Source of the DNA: a virus
Reading direction: 5' to 3' (one strand)
Length of the DNA stretch: 64,000 nucleotides
IMG/VR virus record: IMGVR_UViG_3300040856_003274
Span: 104,267 to 168,266 of that record
Made by a program: the position numbers and the translations under genes
Part shown: positions 36,018 through 61,116 of the stretch, one piece after another
Layout: every line of letters starts with the position of its first letter
Numbering within the stretch: position 1 is the stretch's first letter
The notes under the pieces: model-generated
Told to the model about the DNA's origin: nothing
The model's input: the letters and a program-made list of their open reading frames with translations, nothing else
The model's database searches: none

Positions 36018-36018
36018 A

Positions 36019-39000
36019 ATGGCTAAGAACTCTAACGGTGTAACCATTACAGAGAGCGTCCCTGCGAGCAGAGCGCCTAATCTTGGTCTTAACCTGCACC
36101 TTTCTGATAGCAGGGCTCACGACGCTTTAGAGATTATCTTTAACGGCACAGGCACTGTGGCTGAGACATTAGAGCAGATCATTAGAGACTTATATAATGT
36201 GCCTGAAGGCATTGGTTCTTCAGATCAGACTCTCCAGCCCGATTGGGGTGCTCTCAAAGCTGGCGCAGTAGAGTCTAATCAGTATGATTACAACAGCGCG
36301 TTGTTCACAGATCGCTTACATTACACAGACAGCCTTTTAGGTCTTACGACAAAGACAGGCATTCCTGCGGATAATAACTTTCTTGAAGCGATTTACCCTC
36401 GGTATGATATATCCCCTACAGCGGTAGACTCAGGGACGACGGACGCTAACTTTAACCTTAGCGACGGGTCTTACACTGGCGGTGGAGGTGGAGAGGGGCT
36501 TGAAGGCGCTTATCGTATAACAGGTGGTACAGATAACCTGAAGACAAGTGGCATCTACCCTAACAGCCTCTCGCACGCAGTTATCTCAGGCACAGTGCTC
36601 CCCGCAGATAAAGGTGTTTTGGCACTTGTGTCTTTCTTTATCGCCCCGAATGCAGATGACCAAAAGTATTCCCTTGTGCTCCCCCCTAACCTAGAAGAAA
36701 GATGCGTCTCTGCAATCTTACTAGGTGGAGGCATTGCTACGGGAGACGACGGTGAGACAGGAGACAACCTCTTCAAGAGCGGAGAGGGCTTCCCAGGCAC
36801 TAAGTCAGGGCAGTATGACCTTTCCGAAATCCATAACGGAGTTGATAGGCTCACGTCTGATGCGATTGAGGGTGGGGCTAATGAATATGCAGGTCTTGTA
36901 AGATTATTTGCTGACCCACGAAGCTCTGACGTAGAGAGCCCGATCCCCATTTTAGGGGCTACTTCTGTGGCTTTTGGTGGTGGAGACGATAACAACTTCT
37001 TCCGATACCGACTCCCTATGCTCAAAGACTATGAGGGGCTCTCTGACACTCCCACGGATCACAAAGACCGTTTCTTTGATAAGCCCGCGCTTTCACTAGA
37101 TAGCGGTGTAAACTTCACGTTTGCAGGTGGCTACTCTAACTTTGCAGACCAAGACCCACTCTATACTCAGTTAGCGAAGTTTAGACACCGCTTTGAGGTA
37201 AGCTCAGATACTGTCTATGTACTCTTCCACTTCCGAACCGAGAGGGCTTTTGAGAGTCTCGTCAGAGATGGTAACATGCCAACGTCTTCTGACTTGTACG
37301 GGGTATACACGGGAGTATCGAGTGGGAGCTTCGAGGCCACCTTGCCTTCTAGTAGACCTTTTGCGCTCCCCCTCGCAAAAGACGTGAAGAAACTCTCTAG
37401 CACACTCCCTAATACGGTTAATCAGGATATGGGCTATATCTTAAAGCCCGTTGAGAGAGCGAACTCCGCAAGCATTTTGCCTCTTATCGCCACCTACGGA
37501 AATGAGACATATTACTCTTTTTGGGCGCAAGACGGGCAGGCTAATGTTATGTCCTTATCGGGCGCGAAATACATCGTAAGCTCATCAAGATTACACCCTA
37601 ACGACATCACAGGTGGCGCGGGAGACTCTGAGTTTAAAGACTACGGCAACCTCTCTTTAGTCATCGAAGGCTCGCTTAACGAGACTTCCTTCTACAACTT
37701 TACCTTTTACGACACCGTTAAGACGGATTGGTTGAACAGCCGAGGTCAAAGCCCAGGTTTCTTCTCGACAGGAGCTTTCGGACTGCTCGGTATAAACAAC
37801 ACACCTAAGCGCGTAAGCGACCTTGTTAGCGCCACTGAAACGGTTGACCTGCCTAGCTCTTTCGACGGTAGTCAAATAGGCGTTTTTAAAGGTGACGGTG
37901 AAGCACACGGCTCACACCTCATTGTGGAGCAAGGCTCTCTCCTTAGCCATACTGCGGAGCCCACGGATGTAAACACGACATTCACAAACTATAAGCATCT
38001 TTACCTGTCTTCTGATGGTGGTGCGCCTGTAATTTCTTCAGACGCTAAGGTTAAGATAGGTATCCACAGGCATGGGGATAACGTGAGAGTCGGTGAGGAC
38101 ACTGCGATTGACTTAATAGAGCTCAGCCACTCTGACTTACCCTCTTTCACGGTAAGTCAGAGTTTGGTGTTTTCAGGCAAGTTTAAGATCAACTCTGAGA
38201 TCGACCCAGCGGCGATCAACTACGACGTTGACACTCATTACGGCAACTTTGTTGTAGGGTTGACGAGTAGCAGTCGCGTGGCTGATTATACTAAACCTAT
38301 GCTGAGGACTAACATTAGCCCGATAGCTGAAGAAGAGGTTTACACTCTAGGAGCGCCGTTACCTTCGCTCTTCAGCGCGGAAAAGGACTCCGAGGAGCGT
38401 TTTCTTGATGAAACTTACCGCTTACAGTCGAGCCTCGCTAATGATTACGGAGTACAACAAGGTTACCAGACCCTACCTTTCTTCCTAGCAATAGGACAAG
38501 ACCTCGCTGAGAGGCAATCAAGCCTTAACAGCTACGCGATGTCCTTTAATGCGCTAACAGAGGAAGACCCTACTTTTGGTAGGAAACCGTTCTACTTGCC
38601 TGTGCGCCCCTTCTATTACCCTGCTGACAGCGAAGACCCTTACTCAACGTATGAGTTACTAGGGTTAAGCTACCTTCTCTCTCAAGGTTCTTTTGAGTTC
38701 AAACGTCCTGATGCGTACCCTCCTGTCTCATATGTGACTCCAGGCATATTAGACCGTGTAAAAGTCACTTTAACATACACTGATGCTAAGCGGTTAGACC
38801 CGTTCTACATCCACCTTGGGTATGACTTAGATATTACAGCAAATAGGTTAGACTCGGCAGGTAGGGTTGTTGAGGCTTACGGTGAGCTAAACGGGGTAGA
38901 GAGTAGTACAAACCACGCTACTGAAGACGGGTCGAACAAGTACATGGGGCGAATGTTTAAGAGCTTCTTAGACGCGTTTAATGGCTATTTAGCGGTTAGC

Positions 39001-40644
39001 CATAGTAGCTTTGAGGTGTCATATCCCTCAGGGTACGAGACTTCAGTGCCAGGTGATTATCTCTATCAAAAGTTTCAAACGGCACTAAGACCTATTCTAA
39101 ATGGGGGCTCGCATCACCCTGCTTCTGCAACTGTGAGTCACTATTTCGGCGCGACCTTTGAGTATCAAAGACGTATAGACAATGACCCTTTCGCAGATGC
39201 TCAAGCAGAAGGGATTGCTTTCTTTATAGCCGATGCTATCGCGCCAGGGGACTCAATGACTATAAAGTTTGGGCCAGGTGTGCTTTCGATACAGGCGGTA
39301 GCGGGGGCTCCTAACAGGGCAATAGGGGAGTTTCAGACGCATGGTGCAAACATTGAGCTGACGGCATTAGATGTAGTTGAAACCTTAGAGGTTTTGATCA
39401 CATTAAACTCCTACCCCTTAGAAGCTGTGAGAGGAACAGACTTTAAATTTAACTCCCTTTCTGTAGTAGCTCTTACCTCAACAGATCCTAGCGTTAAATT
39501 TCTTGTGAGTGTTGCAGGCACGCTTGTATTGGGAACGGGTAACTTTACAGATTACATTGCAGGTACTCCTAAAACTATCTACCACTTCGGCACTTATGCC
39601 GAAGCCGACTCTACGACTGCCTCGGTCACCAACCCTTCTTTTGCTTGGAAGAAAGATTGGACTCAAGCAGACCACGACTTAGCGGCTGGGACGACAGGCA
39701 TTGAGGTAGGTTACACCACTCCGCGCACTCAGTTGGTAGACTTTGCAGGGTCTATGGGTATTAACTTTATGTCTCGCATAGGTTTCTTAGCCAACGACTC
39801 CCACGTCGAGTTACCTTCTGACGAGCTTCAGGTTGCAGGATTACCTAACCTAAACCCGCACTCAACAGATATGGCGTGCGATCCGACTCTCCAAAGAGGT
39901 CGATTGATATACCCCACAGAAGACCTGTCGAGTGCTCGACCTATCCAAGGATTTGATTACCACAATGATCTCGGAGCTCAGCCTGATTACAGCAGTCGGA
40001 CAGGGCTCCATTCTTATGTGAGAGCTTTTGATGTCGGGTTTACCAACACCGTTGATTGGATAGATTACACCACACAGCAGACCTCAGATTACAGTCCGAC
40101 GTTTGCTCAGTGGTACATTGATAACATTAATGCCTCTGCTACCCTCGCAGACATTCCTAATGTTACGAGCCAGTTACCTCAAGAGCGCATCTTTAGGGTT
40201 TACGGTATCAGTTTAGCTGAGTTACCCGATTACGGGATTTTCTTCAAAGTCCCAGGTCAGACCGCGTGGTTGGACGCTACTTCCACTTTTACGGTCACCT
40301 CTGACAGTGATTTAATGTTTAATTTTATTAAGGATGCGAGCACTCAAAACGGTACAGCTTGTCTTGTTGACTCCGCAGAAGGAATAGAGGTCTTAGACCG
40401 CACCAACTTCCCTGTTAAGTATGTCGATCTTAAAGTGCTCTTACCTGGGCTCTTTATTAATCCTTACATCTTAAGAAGAGTTGGCGCTAAGATTAACTTT
40501 TGGGGAGAGACTCCTGTCCTAATGAAGATCGAGATTGACGAAAGCTCAAAAGCAACAAGTTATGTATTTGAGCAGACGACTTCATCAGTGCTCGACAACG
40601 TTGGTATCGTCGGTGTTAAAGTTTTGAATAAAACTACACTCTAA
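36019..40644 (+). CDS. Large tail fibre/adsorption protein
   Basis: 1,541 residues. The N-terminus is helical and structured (LHLSDSRAHDALEIIFNGTG) and is followed by a long beta-rich body with Gly/Ser/Thr/Asp-rich loops and a GGGGGEGLEGAY linker at about 155-167. A stretch near residues 1,075-1,170 (IAPGDSMTIKFGPGVLSIQA and, further on, SVAGTLVLGTGNF) resembles the small beta domains in other genes here. No signal peptide, protease or lyase motif is visible. Position between the two GKPxLDSELN paralogues suggests all three assemble together. The receptor is unknown. Confidence 0.6.
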   Translation: MAKNSNGVTITESVPASRAPNLGLNLHLSDSRAHDALEIIFNGTGTVAETLEQIIRDLYNVPEGIGSSDQTLQPDWGALKAGAVESNQYDYNSALFTDRLHYTDSLLGLTTKTGIPADNNFLEAIYPRYDISPTAVDSGTTDANFNLSDGSYTGGGGGEGLEGAYRITGGTDNLKTSGIYPNSLSHAVISGTVLPADKGVLALVSFFIAPNADDQKYSLVLPPNLEERCVSAILLGGGIATGDDGETGDNLFKSGEGFPGTKSGQYDLSEIHNGVDRLTSDAIEGGANEYAGLVRLFADPRSSDVESPIPILGATSVAFGGGDDNNFFRYRLPMLKDYEGLSDTPTDHKDRFFDKPALSLDSGVNFTFAGGYSNFADQDPLYTQLAKFRHRFEVSSDTVYVLFHFRTERAFESLVRDGNMPTSSDLYGVYTGVSSGSFEATLPSSRPFALPLAKDVKKLSSTLPNTVNQDMGYILKPVERANSASILPLIATYGNETYYSFWAQDGQANVMSLSGAKYIVSSSRLHPNDITGGAGDSEFKDYGNLSLVIEGSLNETSFYNFTFYDTVKTDWLNSRGQSPGFFSTGAFGLLGINNTPKRVSDLVSATETVDLPSSFDGSQIGVFKGDGEAHGSHLIVEQGSLLSHTAEPTDVNTTFTNYKHLYLSSDGGAPVISSDAKVKIGIHRHGDNVRVGEDTAIDLIELSHSDLPSFTVSQSLVFSGKFKINSEIDPAAINYDVDTHYGNFVVGLTSSSRVADYTKPMLRTNISPIAEEEVYTLGAPLPSLFSAEKDSEERFLDETYRLQSSLANDYGVQQGYQTLPFFLAIGQDLAERQSSLNSYAMSFNALTEEDPTFGRKPFYLPVRPFYYPADSEDPYSTYELLGLSYLLSQGSFEFKRPDAYPPVSYVTPGILDRVKVTLTYTDAKRLDPFYIHLGYDLDITANRLDSAGRVVEAYGELNGVESSTNHATEDGSNKYMGRMFKSFLDAFNGYLAVSHSSFEVSYPSGYETSVPGDYLYQKFQTALRPILNGGSHHPASATVSHYFGATFEYQRRIDNDPFADAQAEGIAFFIADAIAPGDSMTIKFGPGVLSIQAVAGAPNRAIGEFQTHGANIELTALDVVETLEVLITLNSYPLEAVRGTDFKFNSLSVVALTSTDPSVKFLVSVAGTLVLGTGNFTDYIAGTPKTIYHFGTYAEADSTTASVTNPSFAWKKDWTQADHDLAAGTTGIEVGYTTPRTQLVDFAGSMGINFMSRIGFLANDSHVELPSDELQVAGLPNLNPHSTDMACDPTLQRGRLIYPTEDLSSARPIQGFDYHNDLGAQPDYSSRTGLHSYVRAFDVGFTNTVDWIDYTTQQTSDYSPTFAQWYIDNINASATLADIPNVTSQLPQERIFRVYGISLAELPDYGIFFKVPGQTAWLDATSTFTVTSDSDLMFNFIKDASTQNGTACLVDSAEGIEVLDRTNFPVKYVDLKVLLPGLFINPYILRRVGAKINFWGETPVLMKIEIDESSKATSYVFEQTTSSVLDNVGIVGVKVLNKTTL

Positions 40645-49515: not shown

Positions 49516-51002
49516 ATATCTTACTTAGGTCTTGTATCCCTACTACCCCTTCAGAAGACAGTGAGCTATGCGCCCAAAATGCCCGTATTCTTCATGAGAG
49601 CGAGCTTGATTTCGGTCAGACTTCTGACGGCGCAATCTTTACTTTCATCAAAGACTTTGTGGACATTCACCAACACGCCCCCTCATCTAAGACATTAGAG
49701 GAGCACTTCTTAAGCTCAAACGACACCGCATCTATCGACAGGCTTCGTGTCTTAGAGACGTATACTCCCTTGTACAGAGGGGACTTTGAGGTGCGCCTCA
49801 AGGCTAAAGCTGAAGAGCGCAGAACGAAGCTCTCTTTAGAGCTTCTAGACGAAGCCAAGAAGATCATCACGCAAGGCATAAAAGTCAAAGAGGGGCGCAA
49901 AGAGAAGCTCTTACACGGCGCAGAAGACGCTATCCACTACTTGATGAACCGAAGCCACGACCTTGTAGCACCTGTGCTCGGCACTAAGCTGAGTGGAGAG
50001 GTTACGATGGACGGTCAAGACTTCTATGACAAGTACATGAAGACTAAGAATGACCCTCTAGCAGGGCTTGGTCAGATGACGGGCATCCAGCAAATGGATG
50101 CTACCTTGAGAGGCGCTAAGCCGAAACAGCTATGGACACATGCCGCTTTTACAGGAGGCTTAAAGTCAACCTTCATGTTAAATTGGGCTTACAATCAGGC
50201 AGTATATTACGGTCACGACAGTATCATCTTTTCGTTAGAAATGCCGTATGAGCAAGACCGAGATATCCTGTTCGCCATGCACTCTACAAATGCGAGTCTT
50301 GAGTCACAGCGTAAGAAATATAATATTAAGACGGGGCTCGATTATCAGAAGATCAGAGACGGCGAGCTTATGCCTAATGAGGAAGATTACTTACGGGAAG
50401 TGGTCGCAGACTTTAGCTCAGGAAAATATGGGAAAATCCATGTAGAGGTCGCCCCGCCTTCAGCCGAAAACTACACCGTCGCAGACATTAGGGCTCGCGC
50501 TGAGCTTATCCACAGCTCGTCTCCTTTAAGCCTCCTCTTCGTAGACCACGCGGGGCTCATGTCACCAAGGCATTACTCTAACTCGACAACGGAGCGCCTT
50601 AATGAGGTACTCCGCGACTTTAAGAAGATGAGTATGGGCTTCAATAAAGGAGAGGGGATAGCCGTAGTCTGCCTGTTTCAGATTAGCCGTGAAGGTTTTA
50701 AGTCAGCAGAGAAGAATGGCGGTAACTACAATCTAACTCACCTAAGCTACGCTAATGAGGCAGAACGCTCCAGCGATATTGTCACGACCTCTTACGTAGA
50801 CGATGACTTGAGGAAGCAAAACTTTGTGCGCTTCCAATGCCTAAAGTCTCGCGACAACCCACCTTTTGAGCCTTTCCACAGCTCAGTATATTGGCCTACC
50901 CGCAGGGTTCAAACTTGCACTCAACAGCCTCTAACGGATGCTGAAAAGCAATCTCTAGGTGATCAGATCGACACCGAAGAGATTGACCTTAACGACATCT
51001 GA
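49512..51002 (+). CDS. DnaB-like replicative helicase with variant P-loop
   Basis: 496 residues from ATG at 49512 (overlapping the previous stop as ATGA, with GGGGGGA upstream; ATG at 49503 would leave no spacing). The C-terminal RecA-like domain has the DnaB order: P-loop-like AAFTGGLKST (211-220), FSLEM (about 240-244), Walker B-like LLFVDHAGLM (341-350) and VVCLFQISREG (385-395). The glycine that normally precedes the P-loop lysine is replaced by Leu217, but K218 and S219/T220 are kept. The N-terminal 150 residues are helical, as in the DnaB N-domain. It should form the hexameric helicase at the phage fork, with the preceding loader-like protein and the following primase piece. Confidence 0.85.
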   Translation: MNILLRSCIPTTPSEDSELCAQNARILHESELDFGQTSDGAIFTFIKDFVDIHQHAPSSKTLEEHFLSSNDTASIDRLRVLETYTPLYRGDFEVRLKAKAEERRTKLSLELLDEAKKIITQGIKVKEGRKEKLLHGAEDAIHYLMNRSHDLVAPVLGTKLSGEVTMDGQDFYDKYMKTKNDPLAGLGQMTGIQQMDATLRGAKPKQLWTHAAFTGGLKSTFMLNWAYNQAVYYGHDSIIFSLEMPYEQDRDILFAMHSTNASLESQRKKYNIKTGLDYQKIRDGELMPNEEDYLREVVADFSSGKYGKIHVEVAPPSAENYTVADIRARAELIHSSSPLSLLFVDHAGLMSPRHYSNSTTERLNEVLRDFKKMSMGFNKGEGIAVVCLFQISREGFKSAEKNGGNYNLTHLSYANEAERSSDIVTTSYVDDDLRKQNFVRFQCLKSRDNPPFEPFHSSVYWPTRRVQTCTQQPLTDAEKQSLGDQIDTEEIDLNDI

Positions 51003-51009
51003 GTGTCTT

Positions 51010-51576
51010 ATGAGTAGAGCGAGAAACATTAAAGACAACACTTCTATCGTGGAAGTGCTCTCAGACCTCGGCTATCACGTACACGCGCATGGGGGAGACA
51101 GGGAACAGCAGTTTTCTTGTGACCTTCATGGAGATGGTAGTGACAGCAAGCCTTCTGCGCGTGCCTATCCTGACAGCAATAGCTGGTACTGCTTCGCTTG
51201 CGGTAAAGTTAGGGACGCGATTTCAACGGTACGCGAAAAGTGGGGGTATAGCTTCCCTGAAGCGTGCAAGTACCTAGAAGACAAGTACGGTGTAGATTAT
51301 ACTCCATCAGCATATTCTCAAGGGTCAGAGACAGAGGCTGAAGAAGACCGTACACAAGCGCAGTGGGAACAAGAGGTTAAGAGAACAGAGGCGCTCTTAA
51401 CCAACTTTAGTAGAGACTTCCAAGACCGATCTTGGCTTATCCCTTTGTGGGAGGGTTTCGACTACCTTACGTGGCAAAACCAAAAGAAGGGCTTAACACC
51501 TCTCAAAGGGCTTGAGTCTTTAAGAGAGAAAGCAATCCGATTAGCTAGCATGAAAGTAGCTAGAGGTGACTTATGA
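51010..51576 (+). CDS. CHC2 zinc-finger primase fragment (no TOPRIM)
   Basis: 188 residues from ATG at 51010, which is 7 bases after the helicase stop; an upstream in-frame ATG at 50959 would overlap the helicase by 44 bases and is less likely. C37-x2-H40 and C61-x2-C64 (FSCDLHGDG then WYCFACG) form the CHC2 zinc-binding domain of DnaG-type primases, with the usual KPSARAYPDSN spacer. The chain ends after a helical segment and has no TOPRIM or RNA polymerase domain. If this is a primase, the catalytic part must be a separate gene outside the window; otherwise it is a zinc-binding template-recognition factor. It follows the helicase and overlaps the next gene by ATGA. Confidence 0.8.
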   Translation: MSRARNIKDNTSIVEVLSDLGYHVHAHGGDREQQFSCDLHGDGSDSKPSARAYPDSNSWYCFACGKVRDAISTVREKWGYSFPEACKYLEDKYGVDYTPSAYSQGSETEAEEDRTQAQWEQEVKRTEALLTNFSRDFQDRSWLIPLWEGFDYLTWQNQKKGLTPLKGLESLREKAIRLASMKVARGDL

Positions 51577-51947
51577 TTATTGAGAATGACGTGTTTTACG
51601 GTGTTGTTGAGAGGGGCGACTCCCCTAAAGACGCTTTTAGGAGATTAAAAGCGAGAAACCCTTTCTTCGCCTCGGTGCAGACATACCTAATCAATCAAGA
51701 AGATAAGATTAGTAAAGAAGATGTGCTCCGATGTTTAGGTCTTGAGAAACCTGTCTTCCATGAGAGAAAGTGCAAAGTCTACTTCCTGGGCGATGACACC
51801 TTCTACTTCTTCAGGAATAAGAGCCCTGTATCGCCTATAAAGATTTACGAAGAAGCAGAGAACATTATATCTCGTTGGAAGAGCGGGGACTTAGACGAGA
51901 GTGCCATAGAGCAACTAGAGAAAGCTATGAGGGGATCACATGAGTGA
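51573..51947 (+). CDS. Small protein of replication operon, unknown
   Basis: 124 residues, overlapping the primase piece by ATGA. Compact and alpha/beta: VFYGVVERGDSPKDAFRRLK, then RNPFFASVQTYLINQEDKIS, then VYFLGDDTFYFFRNKSP, ending in a charged helix. No metal-binding or catalytic cluster is visible. Position directly after the CHC2 protein suggests it may contribute to priming or primase regulation, but this is only context. It overlaps the DUF3310 gene by eight bases. Confidence 0.7.
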   Translation: MIIENDVFYGVVERGDSPKDAFRRLKARNPFFASVQTYLINQEDKISKEDVLRCLGLEKPVFHERKCKVYFLGDDTFYFFRNKSPVSPIKIYEEAENIISRWKSGDLDESAIEQLEKAMRGSHE

Positions 51948-52176
51948 GTATGAGAAAGTAAAAGACCCGAAGCATTACCAAGGAGAGGGTGGGCTCTCTG
52001 CGCTCGACGTAATCAATGCTTTCGGTTTCGGTGAAGGCTACGCTTTAGGGTCTGCGATTAAGTATATTTTAAGAGCAGGGAAAAAGCCTGGCGAGAGCGC
52101 CATAACCGATCTCAAAAAAGCAATGTGTTGCTTAGAGTCTGTAATCAAGGAGTACGAGAAGAATGAAGAGCAGTAG
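51940..52176 (+). CDS. DUF3310 protein
   Basis: 78 residues with the DUF3310 pattern from end to end: DPKHYQGEGGLSALDVINAF, then GYALGSAIKYILRAGKK and ITDLKKAMCCLESVI. This family is a frequent small phage protein near nucleotide-metabolism genes; it has been called nucleotide-kinase-like, but activity is not established. A neighbouring dCMP deaminase fits a role in nucleotide supply. Confidence 0.88.
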   Translation: MSEYEKVKDPKHYQGEGGLSALDVINAFGFGEGYALGSAIKYILRAGKKPGESAITDLKKAMCCLESVIKEYEKNEEQ

Positions 52177-52863: not shown

Positions 52864-53183
52864 TTAAGCAGATACCCAACAGATACAAAATACCTTTAGA
52901 CGACATAGAAAAGATCGTCATAACCATAGAAGCCTACCAAAAGCTAATCTCCTTTTATGAGGAGTGGCTCGAAAAGCATGGCCCTTACGAGTATGTTGAC
53001 GAGAGGATTTGCGCCCTTACCAGTGAGTATTGTGAATACTTGTTTGCTAAAGAGTATGCGAAAGAGGGGGCTCGAACATTTGGCTCGGATATGAACATCT
53101 ATAGGTCTGTAGAGAAGGACTTTAAGAGGCATTTCCCTCACTTAGAATTTATACCTCCGAGGAAGTCTGATGATAGAGATTAA
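52860..53183 (+). CDS. Small unknown acidic-basic helical protein
   Basis: 107 residues, overlapping the deaminase by ATGA and the methyltransferase N-part by 14 bases. It is largely helical (DDIEKIVITIEAYQKLISFY, then RSVEKDFKRHFPHLEFIP) and charged. No motif is visible. Function unknown; it belongs to the replication/nucleotide operon by position. Confidence 0.7.
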   Translation: MIKQIPNRYKIPLDDIEKIVITIEAYQKLISFYEEWLEKHGPYEYVDERICALTSEYCEYLFAKEYAKEGARTFGSDMNIYRSVEKDFKRHFPHLEFIPPRKSDDRD

Positions 53184-53721
53184 GACAGGAGATTGTGTCG
53201 AGCGCCTAAAAGACCTAGAAGATAACTCAGTTGACGCGGTGATTTGCGACCCACCTTACGGACTTAGGTTTATGTCTAAAGGTTGGGATGATATTGGTGA
53301 CGGCAGTCAGCAAAGAGAGTGGCATAGAGCATGGCTGACAGAAGCTCATAGAGTCTTAAAGCCTAATGGAGTCCTCAAGGCTTTCTCAGGGACTCGAACC
53401 TTCCATCACCTAATCGCGATGATGGAAGAAATAGGCTTCTCAGAGTTACGGATAGAGGCTTGGAGTTATGGATCGGGTTTCCCCAAATCTCACAACGTGG
53501 CTCTTGGTATAGACAAGAAATACGGTTACGGTAACAGAGGTAGGGCAATCCCTACTGCTTCTCGCTTCCAAGCCTCTGACATACAACAAGAAAACAAGCT
53601 CACCTCTAACCCTGTGGAAGCATACGAAGCTAAAACAGAAGCCTCCAAGCCTTTCCAAGGCTACGGTACGGCTCTAAAGCCTTCATGGGAGCCTATCTGT
53701 ATTGGAGTAAAACGATGTTAA
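53170..53721 (+). CDS. DNA methyltransferase fragment 1 (catalytic motif IV half)
   Basis: 183 residues, the N-terminal part of a beta-class N6-adenine/N4-cytosine DNA methyltransferase. Motif IV DPPY is at 27-30, preceded by IKTGDCVERLKDL. Downstream are the LKPNGVLKAFSGTRTFHHL motif, the IEAWSYGSGFPKSHNV stretch and the KPSWEPICI motif. The chain stops there. In known phage homologues the protein continues through a middle region to the AdoMet-binding half. The missing parts are encoded by two further ORFs downstream (53903-54301 and 54741-55400). Alone it lacks AdoMet motif I and cannot be a complete enzyme unless the pieces associate. Confidence 0.85.
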   Translation: MIEIKTGDCVERLKDLEDNSVDAVICDPPYGLRFMSKGWDDIGDGSQQREWHRAWLTEAHRVLKPNGVLKAFSGTRTFHHLIAMMEEIGFSELRIEAWSYGSGFPKSHNVALGIDKKYGYGNRGRAIPTASRFQASDIQQENKLTSNPVEAYEAKTEASKPFQGYGTALKPSWEPICIGVKRC

Positions 53722-53906
53722 CCTGTCGAGTCTGCTTAAACGAGAGTAACCGTTCTTCAATCTGCTCTAAATGTGCAAAACTTACAGCAGAGGGAATAAT
53801 GGATAAACTGGATAAGAAGAATCAGTTAAAACCTCTAGAAGCATATAGAAGAACCAACTCAAAAGATGTCTTTGTAGGTGCTCTTAACGGGAGTCGTTCA
53901 CCATGA
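53715..53906 (+). CDS. Zinc-ribbon small protein inserted between methyltransferase fragments
   Basis: 63 residues from ATG at 53715, overlapping fragment 1 by seven bases and fragment 2 by ATGA. Two CxxC pairs, C4-x2-C7 and C17-x2-C20 (CRVCLNESN then ICSKC), make a small zinc ribbon, followed by a Lys-rich helix (MDKLDKKNQLKPLEAYR). It is not an HNH endonuclease by sequence. It occupies exactly the place where a contiguous methyltransferase would be expected. Confidence 0.6.
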   Translation: MLTCRVCLNESNRSSICSKCAKLTAEGIMDKLDKKNQLKPLEAYRRTNSKDVFVGALNGSRSP

Positions 53907-54301
53907 TTGTCACATTATTAAGAAAGCCCTTAGAGGGAAGCGTAGCCGATAACGTACTGGAACATGGGTGCGGGGCTCTCAACATAGATGCCACTAGGGT
54001 AGGTTATGCAACAAAGGGCAGGTGGCCTGCTAACTTTATCCTTACTCACCTAGACGTTTGTATTCCTCAAGGTGAAGATTGGGCTTGTGTAGAAGGCTGT
54101 CCTGTCAGAGAGCTAGACCGACAAAGTGGTCATCAAAAGAGCGGTATCGCAGGGTCTAAAAGCAGGGCTTGGGGGGTGGCGGGTAAAGGGCAGCTCTCTT
54201 CTACAGAAGATGGAGTAGGATGGAAGGCTTACGGATCAGAGGGTTATGGAGATGAGGGTGGAGCTTCGAGGTTCTTCAAACAATTTAAGGAAACAAAATG
54301 A
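53903..54301 (+). CDS. DNA methyltransferase fragment 2 (middle region)
   Basis: 132 residues that match the middle of the same methyltransferase family: LRKPLEGSVADNVLEHGCGA, then LNIDATRVGY and GRWPANFILTH, and later GCPVRELDRQSG and GGASRFFKQF. In intact proteins this comes after the EPI motif of fragment 1 and before the final part of fragment 3. It contains no motif IV or motif I. The start is an ATG overlapping the zinc-ribbon stop and the end overlaps the next ORF by ATGA, so it appears to be translated as a separate chain. Confidence 0.8.
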   Translation: MIVTLLRKPLEGSVADNVLEHGCGALNIDATRVGYATKGRWPANFILTHLDVCIPQGEDWACVEGCPVRELDRQSGHQKSGIAGSKSRAWGVAGKGQLSSTEDGVGWKAYGSEGYGDEGGASRFFKQFKETK

Positions 54302-54741
54302 AAGATGACTTCATGGATCGGATAGACGACATTCTTAACCCGCCTAATGAAGAGGGCAACACAGGCTTCCCTGCTACCCTCTCAGCACAAGAGCTGCCGA
54401 GTAACATTAAGGTGCTCCTCGAACGCTTCTTATCTGCTTACGAAGCGAACAACTGTATCGACAACAGGGCTTCGGAGAAGCTCTTAGAAGATACCGCAAT
54501 AAGCGTCCTTCTCGAAATAGCTGAGAGGGTAAAGAGCGTCAGCCTTGAAAGCCACATCTTAAGATTAGGTGGTGAGATTATCTCTGCAAGCTACACATTA
54601 GAAGGGAGACTCACAGTATATAAGCTCCCTCCTAACATCATTGAGCCCCTAAAAACAGAGATCAAAATAAGGCTGTATAACCCAATGGTGCATGTTATTT
54701 TCGAGGGTGATACTCTCAAGGTATTAGAAGAGTCTGACTGA
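54298..54741 (+). CDS. Unknown protein inserted between methyltransferase fragments 2 and 3
   Basis: 147 residues, helical and acidic, beginning MKDDFMDRIDDILNPPNEEG and containing LPSNIKVLLERFLSAYEANN and DTAISVLLEIAERVKSVS. No enzymatic motif. Coupled by ATGA to fragment 2 and by TGATG to fragment 3. It is the second ORF that separates the methyltransferase parts. It could be a bridging subunit or a later insertion. Confidence 0.65.
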   Translation: MKDDFMDRIDDILNPPNEEGNTGFPATLSAQELPSNIKVLLERFLSAYEANNCIDNRASEKLLEDTAISVLLEIAERVKSVSLESHILRLGGEIISASYTLEGRLTVYKLPPNIIEPLKTEIKIRLYNPMVHVIFEGDTLKVLEESD

Positions 54742-55400
54742 TGATTGATTACCTTAAAGATATGATCTCACCGCCCTTGGAAGAGGTTGTTATATTAGAG
54801 GGTACGACTTCTGAGCTTAATCTCTCTAAGTTGCCTGACTGCTACGCGCATGGTTTAATCTTAAAGGGAGAGCCTACAGAAGAGGAGTCTTCTGAGATAT
54901 TCAGAGTCCTAAAGCCAGGTGCTCACGTCGCCATAATACCTGAAGGAAGCGGGGTTGGACACAGCGGTGTGATTTCTTTAGAAGATGCAGGCTTCGAGGT
55001 TAGAGACGCGATCTTTGTGGCAGAAGACCCTGACAGCTTTTATTACACCTCTAAAGCCTCACGGAGAGAGAGGGAAGCAGGGCTTAAAGAAGCTGAAAAG
55101 GGTAATAGGTCTAACCCACACCCTACCGTCAAACCTATAGACATCATGGAGTGGTGTGCGAGGGACATTGGAAAGAGTAGTCTCGTCGTAGACCCTTTTA
55201 TGGGTAGCGGTACGACAGGGATAGCTATGGCTAAATCAGGGCATAGCTTCATCGGCATTGAGCTCCAAGAAGAGTACGCAGAAGTCTCTCTTAAACGTAT
55301 ACAGCATTGGAGTCCTAACAGTGAGGCAACTTTTAATGGAGAGCCTGCTAAGAAAGACCTGACAGTATTAGGAGGACTCTTTAGTCTCTTTGGCGATTAA
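54741..55400 (+). CDS. DNA methyltransferase fragment 3 (AdoMet-binding half, decayed motif IV half)
   Basis: 219 residues. The C-terminal part has the AdoMet half: NPHPTVKP (125-132), then motif I DPFMGSGTTG (151-160) and IGIELQEEYAE (171-181), ending in a helix. Residues about 30-105 look like a second but decayed catalytic half: IFRVLKPGAHVAIIPEG, then SLEDAGFEVRDAIFV, then YYTSKASRREREAGL. DPPY is absent. So this chain holds the AdoMet-binding half plus a motif IV remnant, while intact DPPY is on fragment 1. A heteromeric enzyme is possible. Confidence 0.8.
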   Translation: MIDYLKDMISPPLEEVVILEGTTSELNLSKLPDCYAHGLILKGEPTEEESSEIFRVLKPGAHVAIIPEGSGVGHSGVISLEDAGFEVRDAIFVAEDPDSFYYTSKASRREREAGLKEAEKGNRSNPHPTVKPIDIMEWCARDIGKSSLVVDPFMGSGTTGIAMAKSGHSFIGIELQEEYAEVSLKRIQHWSPNSEATFNGEPAKKDLTVLGGLFSLFGD

Positions 55401-55450: not shown

Positions 55451-56005
55451 ATGTTTAGTAAGCAAGCGAAGCGCGAAGCGATCCGCAAAGTGGCGAAGGC
55501 TAATGTTAAGCCTGTGCGCCAACGTACTCAATACAACTGCATGACCACAAGCATGGCGATGTGTTTAGAAGCTCTAGGCATCCCAAAAGCAGAGTGTGAG
55601 ATTAACGTTGTAAACAAGGTGATGGGTGCGATCCCCATGAAAGGTGCTTCATGGGAGCAGGCGCTCGCGTGTGCTCAGCATTACGGCATTCGAGCTACCC
55701 TCACAATGCCGAGCACTGTACGCCAGCTCAAAGAATGGACTGACGCAGGCAAGCCTGTAATGATCGCATGGAATCCTGAGGGTAGAGATTGGTCACACGC
55801 TTCTGTGGTATTTGACGTAGATGAAGACCTCAACGTCTACGTAGCTGACCCTAATATCCCCGACCCTGACGAGACAGTGAGAGTGCTCACTAAGGGAGAG
55901 TTTTATCAGAAGTGGTACGAGAAATGGCCTAACTACTTGGTGCGTAGACCTGCGCTAATGCTGGACTTTGAGATCACCCCTGAAGGCACACAGGCGATGA
56001 GGTAA
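55451..56005 (+). CDS. C39/papain-like cysteine peptidase
   Basis: 184 residues. The peptidase C39-like pattern is visible: Q27-Y-N-C30 with the catalytic Cys followed by MTTSMAMCLEAL, His116 in WSHASVVFDVDE and Asp133 in YVADPN, giving a Gln/Cys/His/Asp set. C39 peptidases cleave leader peptides or precursor proteins. This is a free-standing domain with no ABC transporter and no transmembrane segment, so it acts in the cytoplasm or virion. The N-terminal 25 residues are basic (AKREAIRKVAKANVKPVRQR), with KVA near residue 13. The stop is only six bases before a six-module repeat protein, so the two are co-transcribed. Confidence 0.75.
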   Translation: MFSKQAKREAIRKVAKANVKPVRQRTQYNCMTTSMAMCLEALGIPKAECEINVVNKVMGAIPMKGASWEQALACAQHYGIRATLTMPSTVRQLKEWTDAGKPVMIAWNPEGRDWSHASVVFDVDEDLNVYVADPNIPDPDETVRVLTKGEFYQKWYEKWPNYLVRRPALMLDFEITPEGTQAMR

Positions 56006-56011
56006 GAAGTT

Positions 56012-58354
56012 ATGACAAGCCCGTTAAGATTAAGAAGAGATTACGGTGAAGACAGAGTAGCCACGGAGCTTAACGAAGACTCTTTCGAGTCTCTCTTCAA
56101 CAACCCTCCTGATAGGATTTCTTTGCCTTGGGGGTCACCTGCCAAGCCTAATCTATGGAAGACTAAGCGAGTTATATATCGTGCGCTAAAAATCTTAAGT
56201 TACTCTATTGAAAGCCCTGCCCTGTCAGAGCCCTTACGTCTTTATTTTGTGCCAGGGGAAAATAAGGTTACTAAATCACCAAACGTGAAAATAAAGCTCT
56301 ACGACTCACAGGATATTATCCTTTATAGCAGGGTCTTTGAGCCCTCTAATCTTTACACCGTAAGTAAGACGCTTCAGCTATTTTGGCATTACTTAAACGA
56401 CGACGATGAAAAGTTTAAGAAAGATTACATTACCATCCCTAAGATAGCTTCTTCAGAAGAGCCCTCTGCTTATGAGCATATGAGCACCCGCCCAAGCACA
56501 ATACCTTTACCTTGGGGCAATCCCGCCAAACCCAACATATGGAAAGCTCAGTACCAAGGGGGGTCACGATATGTCGTAACAAGCCCTGTGCTCTCTACGG
56601 CTTACACATATATCTTGATTGTGGATAAAGACGTAGAGAAAGTCTCTCTCATAGCTTTTGATCAAGAGGGTAGAGCAAATGAGGTCTACATATATCCTTT
56701 CTACGATATGTTCAAAGATTTTACTCTCCACGGCATATTGCGCATCTTTTGGAAAAGGATGTGGACTGAGAGAGATCGAATTAGTAGATACCTCACTGTA
56801 CCTAAGGTAGCTTCACCACAAAGAATCCCTGCGGTCATTACGCTGAACAACTTGCCTGAGACTCTTTCTCTTCCTTGGGGCGACCCCTCTAAGCCTAATA
56901 TGTGGAAGACTAAAAAAATAGGGTCTGACCTTTACAAGGTGACCAGCCCTGCGCTCAAGCCTAACTACTTTTATACTTTAAGGCTGTCCCCTCGCTCATT
57001 CGAGTTTTCAGCACTCTCTACACGTATTAACTATAGCATGTATGACTACGAATGGACTCTAGACGAAGTTGAGCAAGACACTTTAGAAGAGCTTCTAGAG
57101 ACGTTTTGGAAATACATGAGGAGCTACTCAAATAGACATGGGGGGTCTAAGGGCATCAATAAATACCTCACTGTGCCAAAAGTAGCTTCCTCACAGGATA
57201 TCCCTGCGGTCACTGCGCTGGACAACTTGCCTGCGATGCTCACTCTTCCTTGGGGCAATCCTCCGAAGCCTAATATGTGGAAAGCGCATCAATGGTTAGG
57301 GGGGAAATATACGGTAGAGAGCCCTGTACTCGACTCTGAGTTTGGCTATCAGCTAAATTTAGGCCGCAATCTTTCTAGTAGGTTTAGGGTAAGTTTTAGC
57401 GCCCTCCTCAACGGCAACAAGCGGGAAATACACAGTATGTATATCCATAAGAGAGTCCTTGAGGGGGTGAGCCTAAATGATGTCTTAAAACAATTTTGGT
57501 TAAATATGTGGAACAGTGAGGAAGGTACGATCAAAAAATACCTTATAGTGCCTAAGGTAGCGTCCTCATCTGCTTTAACCGTCGAAGACCTCTTTAAATT
57601 TACTCCCTATACCTTTGAGCTACCGTGGGGTCATCCGATTAAAAAAAACATATGGTCAGTAAAGAAAATAAGTGAGCTTACCTCTTACGGACTTACTTTG
57701 ATTTACGAGGTAGAGTCTCCTCTACTGAAGCACCCTATCTACTTCCACATGGATGCTCCTGACAACAATGGTAAGGTAACTATCGAGGTTAGAGAGGGTA
57801 GCTCATGGGGGGGCTCGTATTATACTCACTTCTTTAATGTCTCAGACTCTTTCTACTCCATGTCTCTCGAAGTTTACATGCGCGGAGTATGGAACAGTCT
57901 TACGCACACGAAGAAGTTGAAGCCTATACTTTTAAGTAAGGTAGCATCACATAACCCTACGTGTATCAACGACATCATTAAACACAAGCCCAAAACCTTT
58001 AAGCTAGCGTGGGGTATTCCTGCTAAGAAAAACTTGTGGAAAGTTAGCCTTAAGCACTCGGTTTTCCTACCTCGCGGTGAGAATGAGATTGTATACACAA
58101 TCCAATCTCCTGTCTTAAATCCTCACTTATCTATAGAGTTTTTGGTAACTGGTGAGTCCGTAAAGATTACTGTTAGAGTAGGGTATTCGGGAAACATACT
58201 CTTCAATATACTTTTTTACTTCAAGCACAGTAAGTCTCTAAGCCAGCCTCTAGACATTTTCACAGAGGCGGTGTGGCGCTACTTAATGAATAATAATCTA
58301 CTGCAAGAGCACCTCAAGCCTAATATCAAGGTAGCCAATACCCGTAAGCTCTAA
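56012..58354 (+). CDS. Six-module tandem repeat protein, possible polyprotein
   Basis: 780 residues made of six diverged copies of a module of about 125 residues. Each starts with L-[PA]-W-G-x-P-x-K-x-N-x-W (residues 38, 166, 287, 412, 537 and 665), continues through a beta-rich body with the S-P-[AVL]-L motif, then a helix with W-x-x-[LMY], and ends in K-[VI]-A-[SN] (144, 265, 390, 515, 643 and 773). The spacing of 121-128 residues is regular. A seventh tag, RVAT, occurs at residues 16-19 before the first module. No signal peptide, membrane segment or enzyme motif. A related five-module protein is encoded convergently. I know no named family; function unknown. Confidence 0.75.
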   Translation: MTSPLRLRRDYGEDRVATELNEDSFESLFNNPPDRISLPWGSPAKPNLWKTKRVIYRALKILSYSIESPALSEPLRLYFVPGENKVTKSPNVKIKLYDSQDIILYSRVFEPSNLYTVSKTLQLFWHYLNDDDEKFKKDYITIPKIASSEEPSAYEHMSTRPSTIPLPWGNPAKPNIWKAQYQGGSRYVVTSPVLSTAYTYILIVDKDVEKVSLIAFDQEGRANEVYIYPFYDMFKDFTLHGILRIFWKRMWTERDRISRYLTVPKVASPQRIPAVITLNNLPETLSLPWGDPSKPNMWKTKKIGSDLYKVTSPALKPNYFYTLRLSPRSFEFSALSTRINYSMYDYEWTLDEVEQDTLEELLETFWKYMRSYSNRHGGSKGINKYLTVPKVASSQDIPAVTALDNLPAMLTLPWGNPPKPNMWKAHQWLGGKYTVESPVLDSEFGYQLNLGRNLSSRFRVSFSALLNGNKREIHSMYIHKRVLEGVSLNDVLKQFWLNMWNSEEGTIKKYLIVPKVASSSALTVEDLFKFTPYTFELPWGHPIKKNIWSVKKISELTSYGLTLIYEVESPLLKHPIYFHMDAPDNNGKVTIEVREGSSWGGSYYTHFFNVSDSFYSMSLEVYMRGVWNSLTHTKKLKPILLSKVASHNPTCINDIIKHKPKTFKLAWGIPAKKNLWKVSLKHSVFLPRGENEIVYTIQSPVLNPHLSIEFLVTGESVKITVRVGYSGNILFNILFYFKHSKSLSQPLDIFTEAVWRYLMNNNLLQEHLKPNIKVANTRKL
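56123..58336 (+). repeat. Tandem protein modules, LxWGxPxKxNxW ... KVAS (six copies)
   Basis: Module starts on DNA are 56123, 56507, 56870, 57245, 57620 and 58004, counted to the leucine of each L-x-W-G signature, i.e. 363-384 bases apart. The copies are conserved at signature positions (W-G, P, K, N, W, the SP-x-L motif and the closing KVAS) but clearly diverged elsewhere, so the duplications are old. No run of long identical DNA was noticed between copies. Confidence 0.7.
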
Positions 58355-58371
58355 TTCTATACATATTAGAG
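58349..58371. terminator. Hairpin spanning the stops of two convergent genes
   Basis: CTCTAAT (58349-58355) and ATTAGAG (58365-58371) are a perfect seven-base inverted repeat with a nine-base loop. It covers the stop codon of the rightward module gene and that of the leftward one. Without a long T-run it would be a weak bidirectional terminator at best, but its position between convergent genes 11 bases apart fits. Confidence 0.45.
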
Positions 58372-61116
58372 ACAAGAATACAGACAGGTAGACCACACAC
58401 ACCCTGTCTGCTCAATGTGCTCACTGAGATAAGCCTTAATCTTGTCCGAGTCTGAGGTCTTACGCGCTAAGAGCTTGTTGATAAGCATGGCTGAACGGAT
58501 TTGCAAGTCATTAATGTTGCTCAGACAGCGTTTAACGGTTCTCTCATCATATCCGTACATGGAGGACGCGATCTTGCTGAGAGCCTCACTATAGATGTCT
58601 TTATGGCATTGTACGAACGCTTTGACGAACGGGCTACCGCTCTTCTCTGCGTGTGCTCGATAAAACTCTAGGTGCTTATCCCCTTTGCTCTTCTGCTTAG
58701 AGCAAAGAGTCCTACAGTATTTTTTGAGCTGGGATACCGCGAGCTCACAATCCTTTTGGACTTTCTTAGTGTAGCCGTAGCGCCCGCTTGCAGAAGCAAC
58801 CTTAACATTAGGGTTGAGTATGTGTTTTGTGAGCCCCTTACTCACCAAATCATTCCACAGGAAACTTGTGAAAGACTCGAAAGGCTGTTCTAAAATAGGA
58901 TCGTCCTTTCCAAGGTTCCAATACGTCAAGCCCATAACTTTGTCTTTATATTTCCCTATTCCGTAGGGGTTCAAAATGTTAATGTTGACGTAATAACTTT
59001 TAGGGCTACTTTTTATCCTTAGCTCTAAGCTAGTGTTTGGTTTTAGCACAGGGGACTGGATGTGATAAAAATCCGTACTGCCTCCTGATTTTAAATCAGC
59101 CTTCCACAAGTTTTTCTTAGGGGGGTTGCCCCACGCGAGCTCTATTGCTCTCGGTCTACGAGTAAAGACTTCTCTTGTCGTTGCGTAAGGCTCCCTAGAG
59201 GCTACTCTAACTCCAGGCTTAAGTATAGGTGTCCCACCCGTAAGAGGGTGCTGGCTTGCCTCATGTGCTACACCTCGCCATACTTCCTCCATAAAAGTAT
59301 CGAAGGGTAGGTCTAAGTTAGGGTGTTCATCGTCAAGCCGATTAAAATATAAGGTCTTCCCTATCTGATTATTCTTCGTTATGAGACGGACTTCTACTTC
59401 AGAAACAGCTCTGTAAACATGGAACATAATGCTCAAGTCAAGATTTAAGGCAGGAGATTTAACCCTGTAATAAGTCTGGTTTCGAGTCTCATTTTCTTTC
59501 ATTACCTTCCACATATTCTTCTTAGCAGGAGTCCCCCACGCTAACTCGAAAGTCTCAGGTCTTTGCTTAAAGAAGTCTCTTAATGTGTATGAGGGCTGTG
59601 AGGCTACTTTTGTGTTTGGCTTGAATAAGAAGCCGAAAGATTTAACTTTTATCTCTCGGTTAACTACGTCCCACAAATGCTTCATAGCGATATCGAGAGA
59701 CGTATTATAAGTTTCTTTATATAGCTGGGTAGACTTTATATGTCTCCTCGTCATTAAATCATCTCTGTAGCCAACGTATATCCCTATACTGTGCTTATTT
59801 TTGTTTAATGTAATACTGAGAGCAGTAGTTAGTATAGGCGACGTTACTTTATAATCAACTCGGTCTTTACTTCTACCTTCACAAGTAACCTTCCACATAT
59901 TCTTCTTAGCAGGAGTCCCCCAAGCTAACTCAAAAGTGTCAGGTTTGAGCTCCATAAGCTCTCCTAATGTAGAAGGTGACTCTGAAGCTACTCTAACCCC
60001 AGGCTTAAGGACTTTAGTGTGTAAACTGCCTCTAGCCTCCCACAGTATCCTATCCCATGTACCTTCCATCATCTTATCGAAGTCTGCCTCAGGAACGGGA
60101 AAAAATGAGATGAAATGGTCAAAATTATCAGACTTGACGTGAGGTAAGTTTACAGCGACCCTAACGTACTCATTAACCTGCCCAGCCGCATCCTCTTGCT
60201 CGAAGAGAGTGAATGAGATATTTATAGGATTTAAGAGAAAGGGCGAGTTTATAACATACAGTCTCTTATGACCCTGACTTGTATTATTCTCCTTGTATAC
60301 TAGCTCTGTTTTCCACAGGTTAGGCTTAGCAGGTTTACCCCATTTGAGTTTAATCGACCTGTAATCTCTCAAGAACAAGTCTCTTAGCGTAGAAGGAGAC
60401 TCTGAAGCTACCTTAATGTGGCGATCCACTACGTTGAGGGTAGAGGCTTTCTTCTTTGTGCGCTTGCGGCGCTTCTCCTCCATGCTCTTAGCGATGCCTT
60501 TAGCGATGTTAGGGCGCTTAGGGAAGTAAGTGCCTTTATCTTTCTTGCATCGAGGAGAACCTGGGCGCTTAGAGCAGTACCTAGACCACGCAATCGCGTA
60601 AGCCTTACCTTTCTCATTAGAGGGAATATCCTCTGCCGAGCCGTAACCTTTCTGCTCTGCATACTCTTTAACGTAACGGTCTATAGACTTAGGGTTAGGT
60701 TTTCTCTTTTTAGCCTTGGTCTTCTTCTTAGAGGCAACCTTGGTGTTAAAAAACACCGCTTGGTTCGTATTGTTCAAATTAATATTCTCCCACACTCTCA
60801 CCAACGCTTCCTCTAGCGTAACGTATTGAGGTATCTTTAACAATGAAACGAGATTAACACCGTTATCCGTACAGTAAACATCAACTATAACGGGTTGAAC
60901 GCCTGTCCACGCAAACTTCATCATTAAAGACCGATAGCCGTTCTTTACGTTCAGCACAGGGCTTTTGATCTCATAATAGAGAACCCCTCCGTTTAAAGGA
61001 GCGTCTTTCGGAGCTGACGCTAGCTTGCAACTCCACATATTAGGCTTGGGAGGAGTCCCCCAAGGAAGCTCTAGCTTTGGAGGCATTGCCTTTAATATTT
61101 GTGTAATCCCAGCCAT
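58366..61116 (-). CDS. Five-module tandem repeat protein with Lys-rich insert and Cys-rich tail
   Basis: 916 residues, ATG at 61116. Modules of the same type as in the convergent gene start at residues 17, 257, 397, 525 and 660. Junction tags are KVAS 126-129, KVAS 235-238, RVAS 375-378, KVAS 503-506, RVAS 637-640, KVAS 772-775 and KIAS 848-851. Between the first two tags lies an extra region: Lys-rich tracts (KKKTKAKKRK) around a compact domain (GKAYAIAWSRYCSKRPGSPR, 170-189) I have seen in large-phage proteins. The last 140 residues are helical with eight cysteines (C790, C801, C805, C837, C864, C906, C911 and C915). Shine-Dalgarno AGGAG is buried in a hairpin (61120-61163). Function unknown. 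Confidence 0.75.
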   Translation of the reverse strand: MAGITQILKAMPPKLELPWGTPPKPNMWSCKLASAPKDAPLNGGVLYYEIKSPVLNVKNGYRSLMMKFAWTGVQPVIVDVYCTDNGVNLVSLLKIPQYVTLEEALVRVWENINLNNTNQAVFFNTKVASKKKTKAKKRKPNPKSIDRYVKEYAEQKGYGSAEDIPSNEKGKAYAIAWSRYCSKRPGSPRCKKDKGTYFPKRPNIAKGIAKSMEEKRRKRTKKKASTLNVVDRHIKVASESPSTLRDLFLRDYRSIKLKWGKPAKPNLWKTELVYKENNTSQGHKRLYVINSPFLLNPINISFTLFEQEDAAGQVNEYVRVAVNLPHVKSDNFDHFISFFPVPEADFDKMMEGTWDRILWEARGSLHTKVLKPGVRVASESPSTLGELMELKPDTFELAWGTPAKKNMWKVTCEGRSKDRVDYKVTSPILTTALSITLNKNKHSIGIYVGYRDDLMTRRHIKSTQLYKETYNTSLDIAMKHLWDVVNREIKVKSFGFLFKPNTKVASQPSYTLRDFFKQRPETFELAWGTPAKKNMWKVMKENETRNQTYYRVKSPALNLDLSIMFHVYRAVSEVEVRLITKNNQIGKTLYFNRLDDEHPNLDLPFDTFMEEVWRGVAHEASQHPLTGGTPILKPGVRVASREPYATTREVFTRRPRAIELAWGNPPKKNLWKADLKSGGSTDFYHIQSPVLKPNTSLELRIKSSPKSYYVNINILNPYGIGKYKDKVMGLTYWNLGKDDPILEQPFESFTSFLWNDLVSKGLTKHILNPNVKVASASGRYGYTKKVQKDCELAVSQLKKYCRTLCSKQKSKGDKHLEFYRAHAEKSGSPFVKAFVQCHKDIYSEALSKIASSMYGYDERTVKRCLSNINDLQIRSAMLINKLLARKTSDSDKIKAYLSEHIEQTGCVWSTCLYSCL
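58783..61068 (-). repeat. Tandem protein modules, LxWGxPxKxNxW ... K/RVAS (five copies)
   Basis: On DNA the signature leucines lie at 61068, 60348, 59928, 59544 and 59139. The first interval is long (240 residues) because the Lys-rich insert is there; the others are 140, 128 and 135 residues. The linker after each tag is also repeated (SESPSTLRDLF, SESPSTLGELM, SQPSYTLRDFF), suggesting short spacer helices between folded domains. Confidence 0.7.

Follow-up and report, generated by a model that had tools for sequence, protein, structure and literature searches.

What might be the role of a protein module that a virus carries eleven times in two adjoining genes? The window, that is, the whole stretch of 64,000 nucleotides analysed here, corresponds to bases 104267-168266 of the 168,266-base virus record IMGVR_UViG_3300040856_003274; it harbours gene A (56012-58354, plus strand), an open frame of 780 codons encoding a six-module protein of 780 amino acids (aa), and gene B (58366-61116, minus strand), an open frame of 916 codons encoding a five-module protein of 916 aa. 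Positions are those of the window unless the record is named. A sequence-only reading of this DNA had described the two open frames as convergent and 11 bases apart, with six and five copies of the module; the arrangement and, by signature count, the number of copies were both confirmed. It had also put forward three ideas on their function, namely a virion-internal cargo, a multivalent inhibitor or decoy, and a structural filament. The results reported here incline us to the view that genes A and B encode polyproteins of small internal head proteins, belonging to a phage-G-like jumbo phage, which would be cut at the motif K-x-A-S (KxAS) and probably ejected.

The module and the mark at its end

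All of the complete modules of the record (36 of 36) end in [KR]-[VIL]-A-[SN], hereafter KVAS, a feature that had escaped the sequence-only reading. The mark also concludes the terminal module of every gene, where only 2-6 residues remain after it in five cases and 18-65 in the other three; a plain linker would be needless in that position. KVAS is conserved as a peptide and not as DNA, since 36 distinct 12-mers are found among 40 sites, with all four alanine codons in use; this codon diversity rules out a DNA-level cause of the conservation, such as a recombination site. When the occurrences of [KR][VILTM]AS were compared with the expectation from shuffles, the module genes showed 40 against 0.97 (41-fold), the head cluster 13 against 1.38 (9.4-fold) and the tail genes 3 against 2.8 (1.1-fold).

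In gene A, module A1 (56111-56494) carries KIAS at 56441-56452, and KVAS is found at 56804-56815 in A2 (56495-56857), at 57179-57190 in A3 (56858-57232), at 57554-57565 in A4 (57233-57607) and at 57938-57949 in A5 (57608-57991); the last module, A6 (57992-58351), has KVAN at 58328-58339, 4 residues before the C-terminus. In gene B, whose features all lie on the minus strand, KVAS is present at 60730-60741 in B1 (60697-61080), and again at 60403-60414, at the end of a lysine-rich non-module insert (60415-60729). These are followed by B2 (59941-60360; RVAS 59983-59994), B3 (59557-59940; KVAS 59599-59610), B4 (59152-59556; RVAS 59197-59208) and B5 (58768-59151; KVAS 58792-58803). The protein ends in a C-terminal non-module domain (58369-58791), which contains an internal KIAS (58564-58575) and is strongly conserved, with a ratio of nonsynonymous to synonymous substitution rates (dN/dS) of 0.05.

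The modules share the signature L-x-WG-x-P-x-K-x-N-x-W, and 13 columns are invariant over the 11 modules of genes A and B (L5, W7, G8, P10, K12, N14, W16, Y26, S30, P31, L33, W89 and the A of KVAS). The spacing, which had been called regular, is 121-128 aa in gene A and 128-140 aa in gene B, apart from one gap of 240 aa in gene B that contains the lysine-rich insert. The question of whether the modules align beyond the short signature received a positive, if weak, answer: after removal of the signature and KVAS, and with the profile trained on other genes only, 33 of the 42 module bodies scored better than every one of the 50 shuffles made from them, and 28 reached E<0.01. All five modules of gene B passed this test; in gene A the result was strong for module 6 only, the other five being too diverged to pass. 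The pairwise identity of the modules is about 25%, and the units are of 11-17 kDa and basic (median isoelectric point 9.3).

The module is not restricted to genes A and B. The whole record contains 38 signatures and 36 complete modules, in eight genes at four places, and 27 of these signatures, lying in six other genes, had previously been missed. The spacing across the record is 97-140 aa, the exceptions being two gaps, of 240 and 156 aa. Immediately ahead of one cluster of module genes there is a repeat-rich region with few convincing genes (77000-85000 of the record). Outside the record the family was found only in two IMG/VR contigs, which are two pieces of one relative, the sister strain (median protein identity with the window's phage 95.7%); these contigs hold head genes that are absent from the window's record, that is, terminase, portal, head-maturation protease and major capsid protein. 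In the sister strain the gene B protein has 653 aa instead of 916 and three modules instead of five, two whole modules (B3 and B5) being gone and the lysine-rich insert being kept. Moreover, two module genes of the record (38488-39612 and 49629-52166) stop in a truncated module right after the signature, as if these end modules had been cut recently by deletion or recombination. The truncated ends and the two whole modules missing from the sister gene B indicate that modules are gained and lost as blocks.

The comparison of the two strains also revealed a dN/dS of 0.27-0.75 in the module segments, in agreement with the earlier suggestion of a domain under selection, and of 0.02-0.17 in most neighbouring genes. 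The modules evolve fast and under constraint; their reading frames are under selection and the proteins are therefore real.

No known family could be assigned, as the sequence-only reading had supposed: searches of Pfam, PHROG and PDB sequences gave no match. In Pfam neither gene A, gene B nor the 42 modules matched any family, save for scattered single weak matches, and this includes the giant-phage ejection family PF12699 (phiKZ gp93/95, SPN3US gp53/54). No PHROG family matched more than two of the 42 modules (best E 0.011) and none matched the whole proteins A and B. Two matches in bacterial genomes were due to chance (a wrong frame; one WG-P-K-N-W stretch inside an unrelated protein). The fold of one module was also predicted and compared with known structures, none of which matched significantly. 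The first prediction, with module A4 as query, reached a predicted local distance difference test (pLDDT) score of 75, and the second, made on another paralogue with a better alignment, a pLDDT of 82.5 and a predicted template modelling score (pTM) of 0.74. In the predicted module, five strands form a beta meander and two helices come after it; KVAS lies in the low-confidence, probably floppy tail behind them. A Foldseek search with the pLDDT 82.5 model returned nothing at E<=0.001 (best 0.29 in PDB and 0.095 among viral models); the fold neighbours, namely the Fbxo7 FP domain, levivirus coats, PsiB, KhtT and phage G gp30, were all discarded (E>0.09, low template modelling scores), and the module profile gave no match to phage G gp30 and its small neighbours.

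The K-x-A-S motif in the head genes of related phages

At the level of the coat protein, the identity is 89% with LR745208, a 485-kb uncultured phage, 48% with Tunturiibacter phage Tunturi_5 and 38% with Bacillus phage G. The phage of the window is a tailed phage with a head-maturation protease, which was recognised in the head cluster of the sister strain (phrog_18299, 7e-12). A scan of IMG/VR with these coat proteins retrieved at least 586 contigs encoding a coat relative, and the best 80 matches comprise records of up to 618 kb; the phage-G-like jumbo phage group is large and widespread. Searches of LR745208, Tunturi_5, phage G and 20 further records of the group gave no member of the module family, and two large relatives, of 312 and 376 kb, yielded no equivalent polyprotein of KxAS-punctuated modules. 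The family is a lineage-specific novelty in a widespread phage group.

The motif is found throughout the group. Across the 493 proteins of 42 non-redundant head loci, taken from related jumbo phages, [KR]xAS occurs 470 times against 124.5 expected (3.8-fold, z 31), and the control motifs [DE]xAS, [ST]xAS, [KR]xAG, [KR]xGS and [KR]xSA lie at 1.01-1.06 times the expectation in the same loci; the variants AG, AT, GS, VS and SA of the last two residues are all near 1x. The gene sets used for the motif statistics are mechanical calls of open reading frames, which would dilute an enrichment and not create it. With head genes classed by their order around the coat gene, the excess of [KR]xAS is 10x in the inner acidic core protein and 7x in the protease, versus 0.5x in the coat and 0.7x in the decoration protein, as would be expected if a maturation protease acted on the inner core but spared the shell. 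The head region of phage G is rich in the motif (9 against 1.3 expected) and that of Tunturi_5 weakly so (4 against 1.8). Cleavage of the coat at KLAAS is unsupported: the solved coat chain of phage G (6wkk) matches the coat analysed here to within 4 residues of the N-terminus, so that no N-terminal trimming is seen, and the coat genes are not enriched in KxAS. Outside the head and module genes of the window's phage, KxAS lies within 25 residues of protein ends 24 times against 6.6 expected, and further genome counts gave 40 against 7.7 and 55 against 9.6.

Two other findings concern the association of the motif, and of the modules, with the head. In the sister strain a head-cluster protein bears two modules fused to its N-terminus; the LR745208 homologue of this protein has no modules and is 61% identical to it over 151 aa of the non-module part. 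Besides, in the 376-kb relative (IMG/VR 3300033182_000980) 25 proteins of 108-300 aa have a common N-terminal leader that contains KxAS (MRRSASEIIRNLEMRIARLERQAS; consensus MRR[ST]ASE[IV]IRxLExR[IV]ARLERQAS). Past the leader only one of the 300 pairs of these proteins is homologous, and since they have the leader in common and nothing after it, we consider this sequence a candidate for a portable capsid-targeting tag. N-termini much like this leader also occur in two proteins of the window's phage (MRRTASEILNDLNDLEMRVARLKRTAS and MRRTASEILSDIKDLKIRVANL).

KxAS is thus present at every unit border and enriched in the inner-head genes; its best reading is that of a code for the head-maturation protease or for entry into the head, its use as a cleavage motif being what we propose.

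The neighbourhood of genes A and B

The gene lying 6 bases 5' of gene A, in the same frame and on the plus strand (55451-56005), encodes a C39-like cysteine peptidase of 184 aa (Pfam PF13529, 8e-10), which is probably a neighbour of gene A and not its processing enzyme. Its stop codon is TAA in the window's phage and TAATAA in the sister strain, and these two consecutive stops rule out a read-through fusing it to gene A.

Gene A itself starts with a peptide, MTSPLRLRRDYGE (56012-56050, plus strand), which is a near copy of the N-terminal arm of the major capsid protein of the group, MTQPLRTRRDYSS; the best 13-mer score of this start is 48 against the capsid protein and 28 for the next best among the other predicted proteins. 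The C39-like homologue in LR745208 carries the same peptide at its C-terminus. Among the loci searched, the pattern [ST]xPL[RM]xRRDYG occurs, besides the coat, only at these two sites. One reading is that the peptide of gene A docks on the shell.

Further upstream, methyltransferase-like frames (53170-53721, 53903-54301 and 54741-55400) are broken up by other small frames, and the region 53170-55400 may represent a DNA methyltransferase gene that has been split or invaded. Elsewhere the record harbours a nucleotide-sugar set, comprising a UDP-sugar dehydrogenase (2566-3792), a phosphoglucosamine-mutase-like protein (35024-36406), an NTP transferase (56356-57123), a GlmS-like SIS/glutamine amidotransferase (96526-98274) and a family-2 glycosyltransferase (279-2522), all in record positions, as well as a DndB-like protein (PF14072, 5.5e-10; record 92064-93065).

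Probable head cargo and other explanations

We infer the following pathway. Each module of about 110 residues would fold independently and be followed by the flexible KVAS mark; the precursors would enter the prohead, where the head-maturation protease, with K/R-x-A-S as its proposed motif, would cut next to A or S and release from genes A and B about 11 mature, mostly basic proteins of about 13 kDa. The released modules would be packaged alongside the DNA and would probably enter the host by ejection, where they might play a role in takeover or counter-defence. Of the three earlier ideas, the virion-internal cargo is the one that we favour, in view of the tie between KVAS and the inner-head proteins and of the head-cluster protein that bears fused modules in the sister strain.

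Precedents for such cargo exist. The internal proteins of T4 have targeting sequences, and IPI, with a small alpha/beta fold, blocks a type IV restriction enzyme (PMC9026906). IPI, IPII and IPIII are small and basic, carry signals for head entry and for the protease, evolve fast and are ejected (PMC9026906), features to which those of the proteins studied here may be likened; however, T4 has one gene per protein and an N-terminal signal, and its motif and sequences differ from those of the KxAS modules, which are arranged as many homologous units per chain with a C-terminal mark on each. In SPN3US, ejection proteins are cut by the prohead protease gp245 (PMC10052503), and the inner-body proteins of phiKZ offer a further precedent (PMC13282480). 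These phages have expanded families of internal head paralogues (PF12699, paralogue family B), several of which are protease-cut and whose numbers vary between relatives (PMC5694885, PMC10052503); theirs are single units with propeptides removed at S/A/G-x-E, whereas the units described here are in tandem, marked by K/R-x-A-S and without a Pfam match. Bacillus phage G and Tunturi_5 resemble the window's phage in coat protein and protease, and the phage G head genes are rich in KxAS, but the module proteins were not found in either genome. The nematode polyprotein allergens also consist of tandem homologous units freed by cleavage as small proteins (PMC3079579); organism and fold are unrelated, and the analogy is one of layout only. 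What is new is the domain family and its layout, internal head cargo itself being a known kind.

Some points weigh against polyproteins cut in the head. The literature found on this group holds no data on cleavage, virion proteomics or ejection; the modules are missing from all the other group members searched, so that their function is not a core one; the module genes do not have the N-terminal leader seen in the 376-kb relative; and KxAS lies near the C-terminus of the protease in only 34 of 48 proteases, at a variable position, which leaves self-cleavage of the protease at a fixed KxAS unsupported as a rule. Furthermore, KxAS could equally be a scaffold-binding peptide that is never cut. 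If KVAS were such a docking peptide for the scaffold or core, genes A and B would encode multivalent inner-head organisers that pack the core or condense DNA. The enrichment of KxAS ties these genes to the head without proving cleavage, the modules are basic, and the coat-arm-like start of gene A could dock on the shell. Nevertheless, this explanation appears rather unlikely to us, given that the last modules are also KxAS-ended, with just 2-6 residues after the motif in five genes, that the number of modules varies freely between strains, and that the specific requirement for AS in the head loci resembles a protease site.

An unpackaged intracellular inhibitor or decoy, whose tandem modules would engage a defence target of the host in many copies or variants, would fit the many diverged paralogues, the dN/dS above that of the neighbours and the absence of modules from the relatives searched. 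Such a protein leaves unexplained why its genes have KVAS in common with inner-head genes, above all after each gene's last module, and why modules are fused to a head-cluster protein; we judge it improbable. Processing by the adjacent C39-like peptidase in place of the head protease, in a sort of maturation operon, is suggested by the position of that gene and by its Pfam match. C39 bacteriocin-type processing is defined by a double-glycine (GG/GA) leader ahead of the cargo; GG/GA was not found at the unit borders, which read [KR][VIL]A[SN]. Since LR745208 keeps a C39 homologue yet has no modules, and phage G and Tunturi_5 yielded no such homologue when searched, though the phage G head region is KxAS-rich, a processing role for C39 is very improbable. 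The same low probability applies to a tail protein, adhesin or filament of repeated domains: tail and surface proteins often contain domains in tandem, but the module genes lie outside the tail cluster, no tail-domain match was obtained and tail genes have no KxAS enrichment. In particular, the structural filament proposed earlier is disfavoured because module number (five or three in gene B of near-identical strains) and spacing (97-140 aa) vary and each module ends in a low-confidence, probably floppy tail.

Returning to head cargo, it is quite possible, though we would not call it probable, that dozens of injectable effectors are encoded as polyproteins and cut in the head at K-x-A-S by the capsid protease, and that K-x-A-S, alone or in the portable leader MRR-S/T-ASEIIRxLExRIARLERQAS, marks head cargo group-wide, so that injected proteomes might be read from sequence. 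To our knowledge, strings of homologous effectors split by a capsid protease are known from no tailed phage. The KxAS head code is the part likeliest to be useful beyond this one genome. If the idea is correct, it would provide a sequence rule with which to pick head-cargo genes among the hundreds of unknown genes of phage-G-like jumbo phages, and most of such cargo would probably consist of proteins for host takeover or counter-defence.
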